Positions 1 to 5,943 of a stretch of 5,989 nucleotides of DNA are shown here, piece after piece (the first letter of the stretch is position 1; each line of letters begins with the position of its first letter). The notes beneath the pieces were generated by a model that was not told where the DNA came from, did not search any database, and worked only from the letters and a program-made list of their open reading frames with translations. Origin of the DNA: an uncultured Clostridia bacterium (GTDB taxonomy: Bacteria > Bacillota_A > Clostridia > Christensenellales > CAG-138); contig CAMNHT010000090.1 in the NCBI GenBank assembly GCA_946539625.1, forward strand, positions 1 to 5,989. The letters are read 5' to 3'. Position numbers and translations under genes: made by a program.

Positions 1-1089
1 GCGGTCGGAACCGACCATGCACCGGAAGCGGACGACGCGGTCGATTGCAGAGGCAGGCTCGTTACGGCAGGGCTTGTCGACTGCCACACGCATCTGGTGT
101 TCGGCGGCTGGCGCGAGCACGAGCTTGCCATGAAGCTTCAGGGAAGAACGTATCTCGAGATCCTCGCGGCGGGCGGCGGGATCCTGTCCACCGTGCGCGA
201 AACACGAAAGGCTTCGGAGGACGCGCTCTTTCTTAAGACGCGCGGGCTGTTCCTCGAAATGCTTGCGCACGGCACGACGGCGGTCGAAATCAAAAGCGGC
301 TACGGGCTCGATCTTGAGACCGAGAAGAAGCAGCTTCGCGTGGTGCGCCGCATGAAAGAGGAATTCGGCGATGTCAAGGCGACGTTCCTCGGCGCGCATG
401 CGTTCCCCGAAGGCATGGATCACGAAGCGTACGTGGATCTTTTGTGCGCTGAGATGATCCCGGCAATCGCCGAAGAAGGGCTCGCGGACTTTGTCGACGC
501 GTTCTGCGACGACGGCGTATTCTCCGCGGAACAGTCCGAGCGAATTCTTCTTGCAGGCAAGCGCTTCGGGCTCGTTCCGAAGCTGCATGCCGACGAGATC
601 AAAGAGATCGGCGGAACGCAAACCGCGGCGCGCGTCGGTGCGATCTCCTGCGATCATCTTTCCGAAACCGGTGAGGAAGGCATCCGTGCCCTGAAGGACG
701 GCGGCGTGATCGCAGTCATGCTCCCCGCAACGTCGTTCTACCTCAAAAAGCCGTACGGCGATTTCCGCGGCATGATCGACGCGGGCGTGCCCGTTGCGGT
801 CGCGACCGACATGAACCCCGGCTCCACGCCGAACCTCAGTTTACAGTTTGCCATGACGGCGGGCTGCCTCTACGGACGGCTGACGCCCGAGGAGATTCTG
901 ACTGCGGCAACGCTGAACGGCGCGGCGGCGATCGGAATGGCGGATCGGCTCGGCACGCTGGAAGCGGGCAAGCAGGCGGACCTCGTCGTCTGGGACGCGG
1001 AAAACCTCGACCAGCTCATTTATCGCTACGGAACCAATCGCGCAGCCGCGGTATACAAACGCGGCGTGCGCATGGCTTCGGGCTGTTAA
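1..1089 (+). CDS. hutI: Imidazolonepropionase HutI, 5'-truncated by window edge
   Basis: This is a cytosolic amidohydrolase-family enzyme of histidine degradation. It hydrolyses 4-imidazolone-5-propanoate to N-formimino-L-glutamate. The reading frame is open from base 1 and ends at TAA 1087-1089, giving 362 residues; the family is about 400-420, so roughly 50 N-terminal residues lie upstream. The GTG at 97 is internal and not a start, because the metal-binding HTH motif (DCHTHLVFGG, His codons 85-87 and 91-93) precedes it in frame. Other family motifs follow in order: KSGYGL (Tyr at 301-303), GAHAFPEG (His at 397-399), HADEIKEIGG (His 586-588, Glu 595-597), DHLSETGEEGI and ATDMNPGS (Asp 808-810). 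By comparison with the well-studied Bacillus enzyme, the HTH pair, the HADE His and the ATD Asp are the metal ligands, and the Tyr and GAHA His contact substrate. The C-terminus (LEAGKQADLVVWD) is the usual amidohydrolase composite end. It is followed by fchA after 33 nt with no terminator, so the two are probably co-transcribed. Confidence 0.96.
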   Translation, partial: AVGTDHAPEADDAVDCRGRLVTAGLVDCHTHLVFGGWREHELAMKLQGRTYLEILAAGGGILSTVRETRKASEDALFLKTRGLFLEMLAHGTTAVEIKSGYGLDLETEKKQLRVVRRMKEEFGDVKATFLGAHAFPEGMDHEAYVDLLCAEMIPAIAEEGLADFVDAFCDDGVFSAEQSERILLAGKRFGLVPKLHADEIKEIGGTQTAARVGAISCDHLSETGEEGIRALKDGGVIAVMLPATSFYLKKPYGDFRGMIDAGVPVAVATDMNPGSTPNLSLQFAMTAGCLYGRLTPEEILTAATLNGAAAIGMADRLGTLEAGKQADLVVWDAENLDQLIYRYGTNRAAAVYKRGVRMASGC

Positions 1090-1122: not shown

Positions 1123-1779
1123 ATGGAACGTTTAACCGACCTGACCGTAACCGAATTTACGGATATCTTAGCGAGCGACGCCCCCGCCCCCGGCGGCGGT
1201 TCCGTTGCCGCGCTGCTCGGCGCATGCGGCGCATCGCTTGCCGTCATGACCGCGAACCTCACCATCGGCAAGAAAAAGTATGCCGACCATTGGCAGAACG
1301 CCGAAGCCGCAAAGACGGTCGGCGAACCGCTGATCGAGCAGTTCAGAAAAGCGATCGACGACGATACGATCGCATTCAACAAGCTCTATGAGGCGATGCA
1401 CCTCCCGAAGGACACCGACGAGCAGAAGGCGATCCGCCGCGCGGCGATGGAGGAAACGACCAAGGAAGCGGCGAATATGCCGTTCCATACGCTGACGCTT
1501 TGTGAAAAGACCGTTGCCGTGCTTGAACAGCTCGCGGGACGCATCAATCCGAACTGCGCAAGCGATTTCGGCGTAGGCGCGGCGGCGATCGTGACCGCGG
1601 CGCGCGGCGCGTGGCTGAACGTGAATATCAATCTGCAGTCTCTTTCGGATGAGGCGTTCGTGAACGATCTCTATTCCCGCGCAAAGGCGATCTATGACGA
1701 CGTGACGTCTCGCGCGGATGCGCTCTACCGCACGGTCGACGAACAATGCCGTCCTGAATGCAACCAAATCGGGGGATAA
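1123..1779 (+). CDS. fchA: Formimidoyltetrahydrofolate cyclodeaminase (FchA/FTCD_C family)
   Basis: This 218-aa cytosolic protein belongs to the cyclodeaminase/cyclohydrolase family, which corresponds to the C-terminal domain of mammalian FTCD. It is expected to convert 5-formimidoyl-THF to 5,10-methenyl-THF and ammonia, recovering the one-carbon unit from histidine. What supports this is the N-terminal MERLTDLTVTEFTDILAS followed by the glycine-rich APAPGGGSVAALLGA signature (about residues 21-36), a mostly helical body, and the GVGAAAIVTAARGAWLNVNINL segment (about 147-168) typical of the family. Length is normal. The ATG at 1123 follows GAAAGGAG (1108-1115) with 7-nt spacing. Its position directly after hutI fits the job; some family members are methenyl-THF cyclohydrolases, and the context favours the cyclodeaminase. 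An oddity is that the last codons (C-N-Q-I) overlap the upstream half of the candidate serpin 1 promoter. No terminator separates it from serpin 1 (37-nt gap), so readthrough is possible. Confidence 0.92.
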   Translation: MERLTDLTVTEFTDILASDAPAPGGGSVAALLGACGASLAVMTANLTIGKKKYADHWQNAEAAKTVGEPLIEQFRKAIDDDTIAFNKLYEAMHLPKDTDEQKAIRRAAMEETTKEAANMPFHTLTLCEKTVAVLEQLAGRINPNCASDFGVGAAAIVTAARGAWLNVNINLQSLSDEAFVNDLYSRAKAIYDDVTSRADALYRTVDEQCRPECNQIGG

Positions 1780-1789
1780 GCGGTATTAT
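1759..1789 (+). promoter_or_regulatory. Candidate ECF-type promoter for serpin 1
   Basis: The element is TGCAACCAAAT (1759-1769), 10 nt, then GCGGTATTAT (1780-1789). The element upstream of serpin 3 (4631-4661) has the same halves and the same spacing: 26 of 31 positions match, 21 of 21 in the two halves and only 5 of 10 between them. TGCAAC with CGGT 16 nt further on resembles ECF sigma promoters, which carry an AAC core at -35 and CGT-like bases at -10. A sigma-70 reading would use TATTAT as -10, but no good TTGACA is present at 17 nt. The upstream half lies inside the fchA coding sequence. Assigning it to an ECF sigma is inference. Confidence 0.6.
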
Positions 1790-1800
1790 TGGCAAAACAG

Positions 1801-1808
1801 GAAAGGAG
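1801..1808 (+). promoter_or_regulatory. Ribosome binding site fixing the serpin 1 start
   Basis: GAAAGGAG lies 8 nt before ATG 1817. The frame is open further upstream, with an ATG at 1718 inside fchA. Only the 1817 start has this site and puts a lipoprotein signal at the N-terminus, so 1817 is chosen. Confidence 0.85.
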
Positions 1809-1816
1809 CAACGCCA

Positions 1817-3217
1817 ATGAAACGCTTGCTTTGCACAATACTCGCGGGACTTTTGCTTTTCACCGCGGCTGCCTGCACCATGGATAGGATTCCCCAAACG
1901 GAGGTCCCGACGGAAGCGCCTTCGGACCCTGCTGCCGTGTCGGAGACGGAAGCGACTCCGGAACCGGAGGACAGCAATGTTTCGCTGACCCCGATCGAAA
2001 ATCCGCCGATCCAACCCGGAGAACAGATCGACAATCCGCCGATCGAGCTCACCGACCCGATCCAGCCGATCTATGAAACGGAGGGCACAGACATGACCGT
2101 AAACGGTTACGCAGACTTTGCAAATCTGCTTTCCGCCTCAATTCTTTCCGGAACGCAGAATCAGAATCTTTCGCCGATCAGCGTCTATCTCGCGCTGGCG
2201 ATGGTTGCGGAAGGCGCAAACGGCGACACGCAGGCGGAGCTTTTAAAGCTTCTGGGCTGCAGGGACCTTAAGGAGCTGAACGCGGTCTGCGGCGGCATGC
2301 TCGAAACACTGTCGGTCGACCAGGAGCGCAGCACGCTCGATATGCACAACTCGCTGTGGATGGCGGAATCCATCGGCGGTCAGCCGGTCTCGTTCCGTCC
2401 GGAATACCTGAATACGCTTGCCGAAACGTACCGTTCCGAAGCGAATGTTGTGGAATTCGGCACGGAATCCGCCGCAAAGCAGATCGCGGACTGGATCAAC
2501 AAGCACACCCGCGGCAAGATCAACGTAAGTCCCAACGCGCTGAACTTTGATCCGTCGACGCTCGCGGTGCTGATCAATACGATCTACCTGAAGGACGGCT
2601 GGAGCGAAACATTTGATCCAGAGAGCACCGAACCGGATACGTTCCATGCGTACTCGGGCGACATGACTGCGGACTTCATGCGCCGCTTTGACCGGAACTC
2701 CTCCGTGCGCTTCGGCGACGGCTGGATGGCGTACCGTGTATGGCTGAACCGCGTGGGCTACGTGACGTTCGTGCTGCCGGACGAGGGCATAGAGCTTTCT
2801 GAGCTTTTAGGCACGCCCGACGCGATCGACAAGCTCCTGCATCAGGGCTACGATGTAAAATACGACGTGAGCCTTCGGATCCCGAAGTTCAAGTTCCAGG
2901 ACAAGATGGAGCTCACCGAGGTGCTTTCCGCGCTCGGACTGAATCTCAGCTTTACGCCTGCAGCGGACTTTTCCGGCATGTCCGACGCGCCTTGCTGCAT
3001 CGACAGCGTGATCCAGGAATCGTACATCGGCGTCGATGAAAACGGCGTGGAAGCCGCGGCGTACACGATGGTGCAGATGCGCACGACCGCGTTCTTACCG
3101 CAGCAGCTTGAAAAGCTCGACTTCCACCTCACCCGCCCGTTCTTCTACGCGATCGAATCGCGCGACGGACAGGTGCTGTTTATCGGCACGGTCACGAATC
3201 CCTCCGCGGGAGAATAA
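1817..3217 (+). CDS. Serpin 1: membrane-anchored lipoprotein serine protease inhibitor
   Basis: This is a 466-aa serpin-family protein expected to sit on the outer face of the membrane and trap proteases by the suicide-substrate mechanism. Residues 1-20 form a lipoprotein signal (MKR, hydrophobic stretch, then TAAAC with lipidated Cys20). Residues 21-94 are a Pro/Glu/Thr-rich tether, much longer than in the two paralogues. The serpin domain runs from about 95 to the end. Visible landmarks are NLSPISVYLALAM (shutter region, Asn117), NTIYLKDGW (breach Trp262), VTFVLPDEG, DFSGMSD, the hinge GVEAAAYT (Gly410 = P15) and the C-terminal FHLTRPFFYAI / VLFIGTVTNPSAGE. Counting from the hinge, P1-P1' is Thr424-Ala425, but the loop is about 6 residues longer than in alpha-1-antitrypsin, so the cleavage site is uncertain. 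Residue 400, where alpha-1-antitrypsin has shutter His334, is Gln. A CX9C pair (GC...VC) is shared with serpin 3, and Cys393-Cys394 is unique to this copy. It has its own candidate promoter and a terminator downstream. The target protease is unknown. Confidence 0.93.
   Translation: MKRLLCTILAGLLLFTAAACTMDRIPQTEVPTEAPSDPAAVSETEATPEPEDSNVSLTPIENPPIQPGEQIDNPPIELTDPIQPIYETEGTDMTVNGYADFANLLSASILSGTQNQNLSPISVYLALAMVAEGANGDTQAELLKLLGCRDLKELNAVCGGMLETLSVDQERSTLDMHNSLWMAESIGGQPVSFRPEYLNTLAETYRSEANVVEFGTESAAKQIADWINKHTRGKINVSPNALNFDPSTLAVLINTIYLKDGWSETFDPESTEPDTFHAYSGDMTADFMRRFDRNSSVRFGDGWMAYRVWLNRVGYVTFVLPDEGIELSELLGTPDAIDKLLHQGYDVKYDVSLRIPKFKFQDKMELTEVLSALGLNLSFTPAADFSGMSDAPCCIDSVIQESYIGVDENGVEAAAYTMVQMRTTAFLPQQLEKLDFHLTRPFFYAIESRDGQVLFIGTVTNPSAGE
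1993..2044 (+). repeat. Short imperfect direct repeat in serpin 1 tether
   Basis: Two 19-bp copies, at 1993-2011 and 2026-2044, differ at one base and are offset by 33 bp (11 codons), so frame is kept. They encode IENPPI and IDNPPI in the Pro-rich spacer between the lipid anchor and the serpin domain. This suggests that the tether grew by a small in-frame duplication. Serpins 2 and 3 lack it. Confidence 0.75.
3044..3121 (+). other. Reactive-centre loop of serpin 1
   Basis: The segment covers 26 codons from P15 Gly to the residue before the conserved FHLTRPF strand. The hinge GVEAAAYT matches the other two serpins. The bait part reads MVQMRTTAFLPQQLEKLD. The canonical count gives P3 Arg, P2 Thr, P1 Thr, P1' Ala and P2' Phe. 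If cleavage shifts to Arg422, trypsin-like proteases would be candidates; if to Phe426 or Leu427, chymotrypsin- or elastase-like ones. The specificity cannot be settled from sequence. Confidence 0.75.
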
Positions 3218-3232
3218 AACCATCGTCCACCG

Positions 3233-3260
3233 ATCCGGAGGAATTTTCCTCCGGATTTTT
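3233..3260 (+). terminator. Rho-independent terminator after serpin 1
   Basis: A perfect 10-bp stem, ATCCGGAGGA (3233-3242) with TCCTCCGGAT (3247-3256), has a 4-nt loop and runs directly into TTTTT (3256-3260). It begins 15 nt after the serpin 1 stop codon and separates serpin 1 from serpin 2. Confidence 0.93.
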
Positions 3261-3270
3261 GTAAATCGGA

Positions 3271-3301
3271 TGTAACACTTTTACGCGCTCGGTTGTCTTA
3301 T
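3271..3301 (+). promoter_or_regulatory. Candidate promoter for serpin 2, degenerate form of the shared element
   Basis: TGTAACACTTT (3271-3281), 10 nt, then GTTGTCTTAT (3292-3301) has the same geometry as the elements before serpins 1 and 3. Relative to serpin 1, 6 of 11 and 7 of 10 bases match in the two halves, and the TGNAAC core and the final TTAT are kept. TGTAAC resembles known ECF -35 sequences such as that of Bacillus SigX, but the CGGT core is TTGT here. It starts 10 nt after the terminator, and serpin 2 needs a promoter in this place. Confidence 0.45.
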
Positions 3302-3313
3302 TGTACAGAAACC

Positions 3314-3321
3314 GAAAGGAG
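3314..3321 (+). promoter_or_regulatory. Ribosome binding site fixing the serpin 2 start
   Basis: GAAAGGAG lies 7 nt before ATG 3329. An in-frame ATG at 3293 would add 12 polar residues before the signal peptide, has no ribosome binding site and lies inside the candidate promoter, so it is rejected in favour of 3329. Confidence 0.85.
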
Positions 3322-3328
3322 AAAACCC

Positions 3329-4582
3329 ATGAAGCGTATCGTTTCCGCTCTGCTGATCCTTCTTCTGCTGTCTTCCGTCGGCTGTTCGACGGACAAGCCA
3401 TCCCCTGCATCCTATCCGGACAGCGCTGCCGTCGAGCCGGTCGCGCTCGGCTTTGACGTACCGGAGATCGGTGGCTATGACGATTTCGTCTGTACGCTGT
3501 CCGCCGCGCTTCTGGACGGCACGGCAAATCACAATCTGTCCCCGCTGAGCGTCTATATCGCGCTCGCAATGGCAGCCGAGGGCGCGAACGGACAGACGCT
3601 TGCGGATCTTTTGAACCTTCTCGGCTGTTCGGATCTCGACGCGCTGCATACGCGCACAGGCAACATGATCACAAAGCTCTCCCGAAAAACCGAGACCGGC
3701 GAGATCGCGCTGTGCAATTCGCTGTGGATGTCGGACGTGTTTCCGCTTTCCGGATCGTATCGGAACAGTCTTGCTGAGCTCTATCAGGCGGACGCGGAAA
3801 CCGTGCCGTTCGGCACAGAGGCGGCGGGAAAGCGCATTGCGGCGTGGATCGGGGACAAAACGAACGGGCTGATCACGCCCGCACCGGAAGCGATGCAGTT
3901 CGACGCCCTGACCCTTGCGGTGCTTTTGAATACGGTCTATTTCCGCGATCAGTGGGCATGGCGGTTTTATGAAAGTGAGAACAAACCCGGCACGTTCACC
4001 TGTGCAAACGGCACGGAAACGAACGTCGATTTCATGCATCGGCTTTTGAAGGACGCATACGTTTATCGCGGTGACGGCTTTCTGCGTTGCTCACTTCCGT
4101 TCGAAGGCAGGGGATATATGACCTTTGTCCTGCCGGACGAAGGAATCGCCCTTGATACGCTTTTGGGAACGCCGGAGAAGCTCCAGGCGCTGCTGGAGAG
4201 CGGTGCGCGGATGGACGCCGACGTCGATCTGCTGCTGCCGAAATACTCGATTTCGGATCAGTTTGAGCTCAGTGACGTGCTTTGTTCGCTTGGATTGACG
4301 GATGCGTTTACAAACAACGCCGATTTTTCCGGCATGTCGGACATGCAGCCGCGGCTTGACCGCGTATTTCAGGAGACAGCGATCGAGCTGAACGAGCTCG
4401 GCGTGGAAGCGGCGGCCTATACGAGCATCGACGCGCCGGGTGAAGCCCAGCCGACGGACACGGAGCCGACGCCGCTGCCGCTGATCGAGTTCCATCTCGA
4501 CCGCCCGTTCCTGTTCATCATTTACGCAGGATCCATACCGCTCTTCATCGGCACGGTGACGAATCCCTCCGCGGGCGATTAA
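3329..4582 (+). CDS. Serpin 2: lipoprotein serpin with long Pro/acidic reactive loop
   Basis: This 417-aa serpin has a lipoprotein signal at residues 1-19 (MKR, Leu-rich core, SSVGC with lipidated Cys19), a tether of about 30 residues, and the serpin domain from about residue 48. Landmarks are NLSPLSVYIALAM (Asn69), NTVYFRDQW (breach Trp209), MTFVLPDEG, DFSGMSD, the hinge GVEAAAYT (Gly358 = P15) and FHLDRPFLFII, which fits the classical serpin signature better than the FHLTRPF of its neighbours. It ends LFIGTVTNPSAGD. It is the most divergent of the three. It lacks the CX9C pair, has Gln348 at the alpha-1-antitrypsin His334 position, and its loop is 4 residues longer and rich in Pro, Thr and acid residues, with canonical P1-P1' Glu372-Ala373. 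It may target a protease with unusual specificity or may be non-inhibitory. It is flanked by terminators on both sides, so it is probably monocistronic. Family assignment is firm; the target is unknown. Confidence 0.93.
   Translation: MKRIVSALLILLLLSSVGCSTDKPSPASYPDSAAVEPVALGFDVPEIGGYDDFVCTLSAALLDGTANHNLSPLSVYIALAMAAEGANGQTLADLLNLLGCSDLDALHTRTGNMITKLSRKTETGEIALCNSLWMSDVFPLSGSYRNSLAELYQADAETVPFGTEAAGKRIAAWIGDKTNGLITPAPEAMQFDALTLAVLLNTVYFRDQWAWRFYESENKPGTFTCANGTETNVDFMHRLLKDAYVYRGDGFLRCSLPFEGRGYMTFVLPDEGIALDTLLGTPEKLQALLESGARMDADVDLLLPKYSISDQFELSDVLCSLGLTDAFTNNADFSGMSDMQPRLDRVFQETAIELNELGVEAAAYTSIDAPGEAQPTDTEPTPLPLIEFHLDRPFLFIIYAGSIPLFIGTVTNPSAGD
4400..4489 (+). other. Reactive-centre loop of serpin 2 (long, Pro/Thr/acid-rich)
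   Basis: The segment covers 30 codons from P15 Gly to the Glu before FHLDRPF. After the shared hinge the loop continues SIDAPGEAQPTDTEPTPLPL, with six prolines and no basic residue. The canonical count gives P1 Glu and P1' Ala. It shows no useful similarity to the loops of serpins 1 and 3 beyond the hinge. Confidence 0.75.
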
Positions 4583-4599
4583 CGTTTGTCATCCAAAGC

Positions 4600-4631
4600 A
4601 CGCCTCTCCGGTACGGGGAGGCGTACTTTTT
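4600..4631 (+). terminator. Rho-independent terminator after serpin 2
   Basis: A stem of 11 pairs (4600-4610 with 4614-4624, one G-U) closes a GTA loop and is followed by AC and TTTTT (4627-4631). The last T of the tract is also the first base of the TGCAACC half of the serpin 3 promoter, so the two elements abut. Confidence 0.9.
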
Positions 4632-4661
4632 GCAACCAAATGGTGTGAAACGCGGTATTAT
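4631..4661 (+). promoter_or_regulatory. Candidate ECF-type promoter for serpin 3
   Basis: TGCAACCAAAT (4631-4641), 10 nt, then GCGGTATTAT (4652-4661) repeats both halves of the serpin 1 element exactly. Similarity continues towards the ribosome binding site: 13 of 18 bases match between 4662-4679 and 1790-1807. Here the element is intergenic, so its conservation cannot come from coding constraint. The ECF reading (TGCAAC, 16 nt, CGGT) is inference. Confidence 0.62.
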
Positions 4662-4689
4662 AAGCAAATGAAGAAAGGAATCATCCCTC

Positions 4690-5943
4690 ATGAAACGACT
4701 GATTTGCATTCTGTTTGCCGCGCTGCTGCTTTGCGCATGCACGGTGAACGCAAGACCGACTTCCCCGGCTGCCGAGCCGAGCGAAGCGCCTGAACCGCTT
4801 CCCGATTTCCCGATCCCCGCGATCACGGGCTATACGGGCTTTTCCGACGTGCTTTCCGCAAAGCTGCTGGACGGCACGCAGAACAGGAATCTGTCGCCGA
4901 TCAGCGTTTACCTTGCGCTTGCGATGACCGCGGAAGGCGCGAAGGGCGACACACAGACGGACATGCTGAAGCTTTTAGGCTGCGGCACGGTCGAGGAGCT
5001 CCGCAGCATCTGCGGTGCAATGCTTGAAGCGCTTTCGATCGACACGGAGGACAGCTCGCTTGATATCGCGGATTCGATCTGGATGGCGGATCGGAACGGT
5101 GCTCTGACCTTCCGCGAGGATTACCTCAAAGCGCTCGCCGACACCTACCGTTCCGAAGCCAACGCGGTGGATTTTGCAAATGCGGAAACCGGCAGGCAGA
5201 TCGCGGACTGGATCCGCGTCCATACGCATGACAAGATCACGCTGTCGCCGGAAGACTTCCGATTTGATCCCGAAACGGTCGCGGTCCTGATCAACACGAT
5301 CTACCTGAAGGACGCGTGGCGCGACGAGTTTTATGAAGGCGCGACAGCCTCCGGCACATTCGATGGGCTTTCGGGCGCGCTGACCGTCGATTACATGCAT
5401 CGCTATGACAGCGACTCCGCGATCATGCAGGGCGACGGCTTTCTGCGCTATTCCCTGCCGCTGCTGCGTGTCGGACGCATGACGTTTGTGCTGCCCGACG
5501 AAGGCACGCCTCTTTCCGATCTTCTGGGCACGCCCGAAAAGCTCGACGCGCTGCTGCACAGCGGCGAATCTTTGGAAGCGCATGTCGACGTGAAGGTGCC
5601 GAAGTTCAGATTTGAGGATCAGATCGAACTGAACGACGTGTTGATCGCGCTTGGGCTTGCGCGCGCGTTCGATCCGAACCGTGCGGACTTTTCCGGCATG
5701 TGCGTCGATAAGGATGACATTTTTATCTCGAAGGTGCTGCAGGGCTCGTTCATCGGCGTAGATGAAAAAGGCGTCGAGGCGGCGGCTTATACGATGGTCG
5801 CAATGGTGGATGGCATGGCGATGCCGCGGGAGCTTCCTGAAATCGACTTCCATCTCACCCGCCCGTTCCTCTATGCGATCGAATCGTACGACGGCACGGT
5901 GCTGTTTATCGGCACGGTGACCGCGCCCACGAACGCAGAATAA
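4690..5943 (+). CDS. Serpin 3: membrane-anchored lipoprotein serine protease inhibitor
   Basis: This 417-aa serpin is closest to serpin 1. The ATG at 4690 follows AAAGGA (4674-4679) by 10 nt. Residues 1-17 form the lipoprotein signal, ending LCAC with lipidated Cys17; the nearby Cys15 fits the lipobox less well. A short Pro/Glu/Ala tether runs to about 45, and the serpin domain follows. Landmarks are NLSPISVYLALAM (Asn67), the CX9C pair shared with serpin 1, NTIYLKDAW (breach Trp210), MTFVLPDEG, DFSGMCVD, the hinge GVEAAAYT (Gly361 = P15), FHLTRPFLYAI and VLFIGTVTAPTNAE. Gln351 sits at the alpha-1-antitrypsin His334 position. The canonical P1-P1' is Gly375-Met376; a shift of one residue would make Met the P1, as in alpha-1-antitrypsin. 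It has its own promoter element and a terminator just upstream, and a hairpin follows the stop. It is expected on the outer membrane surface as an inhibitor of an unknown serine or cysteine protease. Confidence 0.93.
   Translation: MKRLICILFAALLLCACTVNARPTSPAAEPSEAPEPLPDFPIPAITGYTGFSDVLSAKLLDGTQNRNLSPISVYLALAMTAEGAKGDTQTDMLKLLGCGTVEELRSICGAMLEALSIDTEDSSLDIADSIWMADRNGALTFREDYLKALADTYRSEANAVDFANAETGRQIADWIRVHTHDKITLSPEDFRFDPETVAVLINTIYLKDAWRDEFYEGATASGTFDGLSGALTVDYMHRYDSDSAIMQGDGFLRYSLPLLRVGRMTFVLPDEGTPLSDLLGTPEKLDALLHSGESLEAHVDVKVPKFRFEDQIELNDVLIALGLARAFDPNRADFSGMCVDKDDIFISKVLQGSFIGVDEKGVEAAAYTMVAMVDGMAMPRELPEIDFHLTRPFLYAIESYDGTVLFIGTVTAPTNAE
5770..5847 (+). other. Reactive-centre loop of serpin 3
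   Basis: The segment covers 26 codons, the same length as in serpin 1. After the shared hinge the loop reads MVAMVDGMAMPRELPEID. Against serpin 1 it keeps only MV, M, one Pro, one Leu and the final Asp, while the strands on either side are nearly identical. The Met/Ala/Val/Gly character around the scissile position would suit an elastase-like protease, but this is a guess. Confidence 0.75.

Follow-up and report, generated by a model that had tools for sequence, protein, structure and literature searches.

Three tandem lipoprotein serpins of an uncultured Clostridia bacterium suggest a bait set exchanged across species and induced together with a cell-envelope stress response

A stretch of 5,989 nucleotides from an uncultured gut-type Clostridia bacterium (CAG-138 lineage of the Christensenellales; contig CAMNHT010000090.1, henceforth the window) carries three complete serpin open reading frames (ORFs), S1, S2 and S3, side by side on the + strand. 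Judged by their sequences, these genes represent three old serpin types with type-specific baits. S2 has the look of a cassette that was inserted and recently exchanged, S3 shows mosaic ancestry within the gene, and genes of the S1 and S3 types share a promoter-like motif with an extracytoplasmic function (ECF) sigma-type gene. These observations, all new here, suggest a serpin set that species exchange among themselves and that is induced as part of a cell-envelope stress response. The motif common to the serpins and the ECF sigma operon offers, for one lineage, a testable answer that places serpins in the envelope stress response, while type-specific baits together with cassette exchange constitute a natural experiment on how bacterial serpin specificity diversifies; we regard these two points as the ones most worth following.

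All three ORFs match the serpin family PF00079 over almost the full model, at 237.8 (S1), 252.8 (S2) and 242.2 (S3) bits against a cut-off of 27, and the hinge GVEAAAYT is identical across them in the alignment. An earlier note on this DNA had described three adjacent paralogues, each with a lipoprotein signal, a full serpin domain and this hinge, a description borne out by Pfam and alignment. It had the array begin at 1780, a position that falls in a spacer, whereas the genes, with starts set at the lipoprotein methionine of each ORF, span 1817..3217 (S1, 466 residues), 3329..4582 (S2, 417 residues) and 4690..5943 (S3, 417 residues). In each protein the hydrophobic signal is followed by an invariant cysteine (...TAAAC in S1, ...SSVGC in S2, ...LLLCAC in S3), and our own regular expression finds a lipobox in 24 of 24 family members. 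We infer that S1–S3 are anchored to the cell membrane and face outwards. The tether previously noted in each paralogue is long only in S1 (76 residues), with just 29 residues in S2 and S3; the same division runs through the family, where tethers measure 55–87 residues in all ten genes of the S1 type (type A) and 28–35 residues in all 14 genes of the S2 and S3 types (types B and C) from the loci. A second species, represented by a metagenome-assembled genome from sheep rumen (locus L002; L and G numbers are our handles for loci and genomes), carries the same three serpins, likewise ordered S1–S2–S3 and likewise preceded by hutI and FTCD_C, so that this independent assembly, together with identities to S1 of only 46% (S2) and 56% (S3), rules out that one gene was multiplied by the assembly. 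With three genes each, the window and L002 provide two species suited to expression and protease panels.

A tree of 51 rows (10 of type A, 25 of type B, 12 of type C and four outgroup rows) places S1, S2 and S3 in separate clades at bootstrap 98–100 (full supports 100/99, 100/99 and 98/88, respectively) and joins A and C as sister clades (99/94). Database proteins account for 23 of the 25 type B rows; they come from the 120 listed of 1,648 matches, with 7,999 candidates scored. The baits differ by type. Type A baits follow the pattern [RK]-[TA]-T-[AG]-[FY] and all ten have Thr in the P1 position (MVQMRTTAFLP in S1), and in type C the variable part closes with A-[ML] in 12 of 12 cases, directly followed by Pro in nine (MVAMVDGMAMP in S3). 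Type B baits exceed these in length and have a high content of Pro, Glu and Asp (SIDAPGEAQPTDTEPTPLP in S2); P0012, whose bait is missing, was omitted from this set. Bait loops share a mean identity of 0.57 within type A, 0.46 within type B and 0.62 within type C, and between types it falls to 0.15–0.33 as compared with 0.45–0.55 for the serpin body. Only 8.5% of same-length stretches vary more than the loop in type A and 0.9% in type B; less favourably for the idea of diversified baits, the variability of the type C loop is not unusual, as 30% of such stretches exceed it. We read these patterns as a different target preference for each type, with predicted P1 residues. P0041 and P0062, for instance, belong to a group of database matches (P0036–P0108) in which near-identical serpins differ by swapped hinge/bait blocks, which looks as though baits recombined between paralogues.

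The best Protein Data Bank (PDB) match of the C-terminal part of S1 is miropin from Tannerella forsythia (5ncs, Group T serpin), in which the Thr of VKTSS lies under the second Thr of RTTAF in S1 when the register is counted from the hinge Gly, so that the predicted P1 Thr coincides. A basic residue precedes this Thr by two places in S1 (Arg) and by one place in miropin (Lys), the PDB titles of which refer to subtilisin- and trypsin-induced forms. Unlike miropin, the serpins described here form a three-gene array, carry Val at P14 and have a longer loop after P1.

Comparison with L002 sets S2 apart from its surroundings. DNA identity amounts to 0.845 in hutI, 0.919 in FTCD_C, 0.859 in S1 and 0.792 in S3; it is 0.991 in the S1–S2 spacer and 0.977 in S2, and inside positions 3301–4350 it lies at 0.97–1.00. 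Synonymous divergence (dS, own script) is 0.46 for S1, 0.06 for S2 and 0.56 for S3. Four genomes without S2 have a spacer between their A and C genes that resembles the S2–S3 spacer of the window (0.68–0.73, shuffled maximum 0.57; a likeness owed partly to a common promoter-like motif, M1, discussed below) rather than its S1–S2 spacer (0.52–0.54). For this reason, the S1–S2 spacer (3218..3328, + strand) and S2 probably entered as one unit. Over their final 30 bases S1 and S2 share 90% identity, which would make this stretch a possible crossover place.

S3 has a different history. In the 51-row tree, S1 groups with its L002 counterpart (100/98) and S3 with the serpins of L001 and L007 (100/99). 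Along the first 525 bases of S3, up to about position 5214, L002 is the nearest relative in four of five blocks and the second nearest in the fifth (0.81–0.90). In the later part, which includes the bait, L002 drops to 0.61–0.79 and others are closer, before the last block returns to 0.90. The 5′ part of S3 thus appears L002-like and the remainder of other ancestry.

The link to envelope stress comes from M1, TGCAACCRA-N14-GGTATTAT, which occurs on the + strand with 0 mismatches before both S1 (1759..1789) and S3 (4631..4661). At up to 2 mismatches it lies upstream of all 22 type A and C genes, including these two, and before type A genes part of the motif falls within the end of FTCD_C. A stricter M1 pattern picks out 21 of the 24 genes of the three types and none of the 48 other serpins from the order; neither of the two type B genes is preceded by M1. 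Ten related genomes contain 65 sites at up to 2 mismatches and none for the reversed pattern. By our own count, 20 of these sites lie before A or C serpins and 9 before one ECF sigma-type gene, 8 resemble coding sequence of a GTPase-like gene and 28 are others. The eight, with a core like CAACAAGCGCTGGATC, were set aside as apparent conserved coding sequence: the three that were opened are located inside or ahead of a GTPase-like frame, and five were assigned by similarity. Across 151 genomes of the order, at up to 1 mismatch, G002 has 5 sites, G107 has 6 and the remaining 149 together have 9, with 2 for the reversed pattern.

Within a set of 31 M1 sites, the −35 block has a mean information of 1.82 bits and the −10 block 1.72 bits, as compared with 0.65 bits for the spacer; in type A sites alone the spacer is conserved as well (1.68 bits), being largely coding. 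As outlined in the available part of PMC8103513, ECF systems have as hallmarks AAC in the −35 box, CGT in the −10 box, an anti-sigma factor transcribed along with the sigma gene, and positive autoregulation. The first of these is present in M1, as GCAACC occurs in 31 of 31 sites, preceded by T in 25 and C in 6. The last has a counterpart at the sequence level, since M1 at up to 2 mismatches precedes the ECF sigma-type gene in nine of the ten related genomes. The 170-residue products of this gene at L112 and L108 comprise sigma regions 2 and 4 only (PF04542 and PF08281), and the other seven are alike by eye. In eight of the nine genomes the sigma gene is followed by a gene for a protein of 673–694 residues, and in the ninth, G007, by one for 309 residues. 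A hydrophobic segment is visible by eye, and both proteins scanned contain a Beta_propel domain.

Several findings weigh against ECF control of the array. The M1-preceded sigma-type gene was not found in G231, one of the ten genomes, and its occurrence is an observation on relatives of the window's bacterium. The −10 element of the 31 sites is mostly CGGTATTAT and not the CGT hallmark, and the protein encoded after the sigma gene is no recognised anti-sigma factor, with a best score of 18.6 bits against a cut-off of 100. We nevertheless infer sigma control of S1 and S3 from the motif they share with this gene. A generic sigma-70 scan gave nothing at the motif places and returned one site in the window, inside S1, the same as in shuffled sequences. 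S2 has a promoter-like motif of its own, M2, at 3271..3301 on the + strand (TGTAACACTTT-N12-TGTCTTAT, a pattern derived from this site). At up to 3 mismatches M2 has 36 sites in nine of the ten genomes, including one at the S2 gene of L002, versus 6 sites for a control. Among others, M2 precedes lipoproteins and, in L139 (scanned), an ECF sigma gene, with L140 and L142 similar by eye; it constitutes weaker evidence than M1. As each serpin gene carries its own promoter-like motif, a single operon is not favoured.

Among the other M1 sites that were opened, some precede a DUF4349 lipoprotein, short lipoprotein-like peptides or membrane proteins. The DUF4349-type lipoprotein follows M1 at L124 and L126 (G006 and G107), the protein scanned with Pfam being that of G107. 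Short peptides of the form MKQ...YPKK...GC follow M1 at L119 (G002:C27), L125 (G003:C89) and L083 (G007:C6). At L119 a radical SAM gene comes after the peptide, and an M2-like site (L141) belongs to a second peptide at this place; the regulon might include a modified-peptide system. A loose ECF-like promoter pattern also occurs before 4 of the 48 other serpins (L038, L057, L067 and L069), as compared with 0.4% in mononucleotide shuffles and with start positions that are crude. ECF control of serpins might therefore reach beyond the A/C family, a hint from too few cases to generalise.

Based on these data, we propose that S1–S3 display three different baits on membrane tethers of differing length, and that a serine (or similar) protease cutting a bait would become trapped by loop insertion, as is usual for serpins. 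An autoregulated ECF sigma factor sensing envelope damage would probably turn on S1 and S3 together, S2 would be a recombination-borne cassette with its own promoter, and recombination would renew the bait repertoire of this inducible surface protease trap, the most likely targets of which would be proteases of other gut or rumen microbes. That the array provides inducible cell-surface protease traps with diversified baits, aimed mainly at microbial proteases, we consider somewhat probable; anchoring in the membrane of living cells, protease inhibition and its targets, control by the sigma factor and the inducing signal are all predictions. More tentative, and on the doubtful side, is a fuller scenario in which the ECF sigma factor and the membrane beta-propeller protein sense proteolytic or envelope attack and call up the A and C serpins, while the S2 cassette and the S3 exchange bring in baits during an arms race with microbial proteases. 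The logic would parallel that of Bifidobacterium breve, where a serpin locus is induced by proteolytic attack via SerRK (according to the accessible part of the review PMC7822027). That locus employs a two-component system and has one serpin-like gene in a two-gene arrangement, in contrast to the ECF sigma factor and the three serpins proposed here.

The earlier note had combined surface anchoring and several bait loops into a shield against several proteases, host digestive or neutrophil enzymes among them. The lipobox and the differing baits agree with the anchored, multi-bait part, and a multi-protease shield is a reasonable inference from them, whereas protease targets are not demonstrated and neutrophil enzymes are without direct support. 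Of eight named relatives, three come from sheep rumen or goat omasum according to their record titles, and three further ones bear RUG isolate names, which we take to mark rumen genomes. Rumen and omasum are forestomachs upstream of the pancreatic enzymes. Because such an origin is recorded for several relatives, we favour microbial proteases over neutrophil enzymes as targets and deem a shield against host proteases unlikely; the baits show no feature that would single out neutrophil elastase. The host reading draws its support from the gut serpins of Eubacterium siraeum and bifidobacteria, which inhibit host proteases (parts available of PMC5127057 and PMC8233489). Siropins 1 and 2 of E. siraeum resemble the present case as two serpins of one gut bacterium with small-residue hinges, and their inhibition has been shown: they act on human neutrophil elastase and proteinase 3 and not on trypsin, chymotrypsin, pancreatic elastase or subtilisin, as stated in the portion of PMC5127057 at hand. 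According to PMC5127057, this inhibition proceeds although no complex with the protease becomes visible. In the same portion, siropin 1 is predicted to be intracellular and siropin 2 extracellular, the two are 60% identical to each other and no lipoprotein is named, unlike the lipoproteins of the array. The analogy to siropins drawn previously is thus loose, as nothing ties the S1–S3 loops to the siropin inhibition profile.

Serpins might also restrain the bacterium's own surface subtilases, a self-control that we hold to be quite unlikely. It has been proposed for Clostridium thermocellum, serpin 1 of which inhibits subtilisin with the cell's own subtilase as suggested target (seen in part of the review PMC6718151). 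This organism, with two cellulosomal serpins and one at the membrane, likewise has several surface-held serpins in one Bacillota cell, two of them held via the cellulosome rather than by lipid (same part of PMC6718151). The self-control idea gains from the 14 subtilase matches, in open frames of 1,097–3,382 residues, that occur in eight of the ten related genomes (G001–G008, G107 and G231), but G004 and G007, both drafts, hold serpins and no subtilase match. In addition, the sole peptidase among ten neighbour proteins scanned is a metallopeptidase of the M20 type, encoded next to the array at two loci, and metallopeptidases are not expected serpin targets.

Hinge and shutter residues bear on whether the proposed traps would act as inhibitors. 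All 24 family members share the hinge E-x-G-V-E-A-A-A-[YF]-T, in which P17, P15–P10 and P8 are invariant. It corresponds to the small-residue hinge at P17–P9, of the ExGTEAAAA type, that marks inhibitory serpins (PMC8233489, in the part available) and departs from it throughout the family at P14, which is Val, and at P9, which is Tyr or Phe. The family also has Gln in place of the shutter His in all 24 members; in the 48 other serpins of the order this position is His in 38 and Gln in 10. The shutter histidine (His334 equivalent) is conserved in serpins, though not absolutely. Owing to these three departures, inhibition kinetics could be poor.

AlphaFold models of S1 and S2 reached a mean predicted local distance difference test (pLDDT) score of 86.0 and 86.1, matched 412 and 415 PDB chains at E ≤ 0.001, with the best 50 of each all serpins, and gave best Foldseek E-values of 9.4e-32 and 3.3e-30, respectively. 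In the S1 model, residues 410–423 (GVEAAAYTMVQMRT), i.e., the hinge and the start of the bait, form a predicted strand resembling a loop-inserted serpin. This inserted state is only suggested, because the cleaved serpins that fit well (root-mean-square deviation, rmsd, mostly 2.5–3.3) are chains without the C-terminal piece, and latent forms as well as two entries titled cleaved fit badly (rmsd 15.9–18.8). In the S2 model, bait residues 367–375 and 378–380 have pLDDT below 50. A non-inhibitory role as sensors, binders or protease-cut decoys would accommodate the Val, the Tyr/Phe and the shutter Gln, and a decoy would suit an envelope-stress regulon too, but we judge it very improbable given the conserved hinge (P15 Gly, P13 Glu, P12–P10 Ala and P8 Thr in 24 of 24), the occurrence of the shutter Gln in other serpins of the order and the predicted strand of S1, with Val at P14 and the Gln leaving some doubt.

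A genome scan with S3 as query yielded eight loci (L001–L008). The array of L002 stops at three serpins, followed by a peptidase M20 gene on the opposite strand. S1- and S3-type genes are adjacent at the hutI/FTCD_C locus in L008, G006, G107 and G231, and in L001 and L003 they lie 3–4 kb apart, with a glycosyltransferase (L001) and other genes intervening. L004–L007 have one serpin of the family on the matched contig. Beyond the window and L002, no type B gene was present in the other loci of the family looked at. The search of related genomes for clusters of at least two lipoprotein serpins, which had been advised at the outset, thus found several (e.g., L002, L008, G006, G107 and G231).

On a broader scale, 104 of 396 genomes from the order of G002 have a serpin above the cut-off, and among the matches listed, 13 of these carry neighbouring serpins no more than about 2 kb apart on one strand (G002, G016, G107, G147, G177, G211, G231, G248, G263, G299, G303, G357 and G375). 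Including G056 and G128, where a contig end interrupts the second neighbouring serpin, the count among the matches listed is 15 of 104, and serpin ORFs were confirmed at all 15 places. A phylum-wide sample had serpins in 75 of 398 genomes, six of them with same-strand neighbours (G002, G531, G587, G709, G751 and G781) and G752 in fragments. The view that bacterial serpins are usually single genes therefore holds for the majority of the genomes sampled that have a serpin; tandem serpins are in the minority but recur, and a set of three is uncommon. A quick tree of 72 distinct serpins, kept out of 111 serpin ORFs of at least 380 residues, pairs the neighbours as mutual closest relatives in G016, G147, G177, G248, G299 and G357, which points to separate duplications in these six genomes. 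Tandem serpin clusters of animals consist of paralogues with diversified baits; the array described here belongs to bacterial lipoprotein serpins. In the portion of the open-licence literature covered, there was no recognisable report of tandem lipoprotein serpins or of ECF-controlled serpins, and the one paper that turned up on serpins and ECF control drew, in its available part, no connection between the two.

Further serpins were noted along the way. L063 (G357) is another triple cluster of the order, the third member of which is highly diverged (end branch 1.7 in the quick tree) and has a non-canonical hinge. G002 (L027/L076) and G008 (L026) have an additional distant serpin off the array, which belongs to another clade and has no lipobox by regular expression, and two short adjoining serpin matches at G006:C7:51914-52194 are possibly a decayed serpin.

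Between the genes of the window, an inverted repeat followed by a T run was seen by eye near 3231–3260 (+ strand) in the S1–S2 spacer, where the terminator scanner gave no call. The scanner did call a terminator-like hairpin 3′ of S2 (4600..4624, + strand), which is not significant alone, as the window has 6 such sites versus 7.4 in shuffles. Upstream of the array, the + strand carries the 3′ part of a hutI-like amidohydrolase (imidazolonepropionase; 1..1089, Pfam Amidohydro_1) and a gene of the formiminotransferase-cyclodeaminase C-terminal family (FTCD_C; 1123..1779, PF04961, 206.7 bits), the 3′ end of which overlaps the S1 motif. At L002/L077, genes for an aromatic amino acid lyase (Lyase_aromatic), urocanase and formiminotransferase lie upstream of hutI and form a histidine-degradation set that looks functionally unrelated to the serpins.

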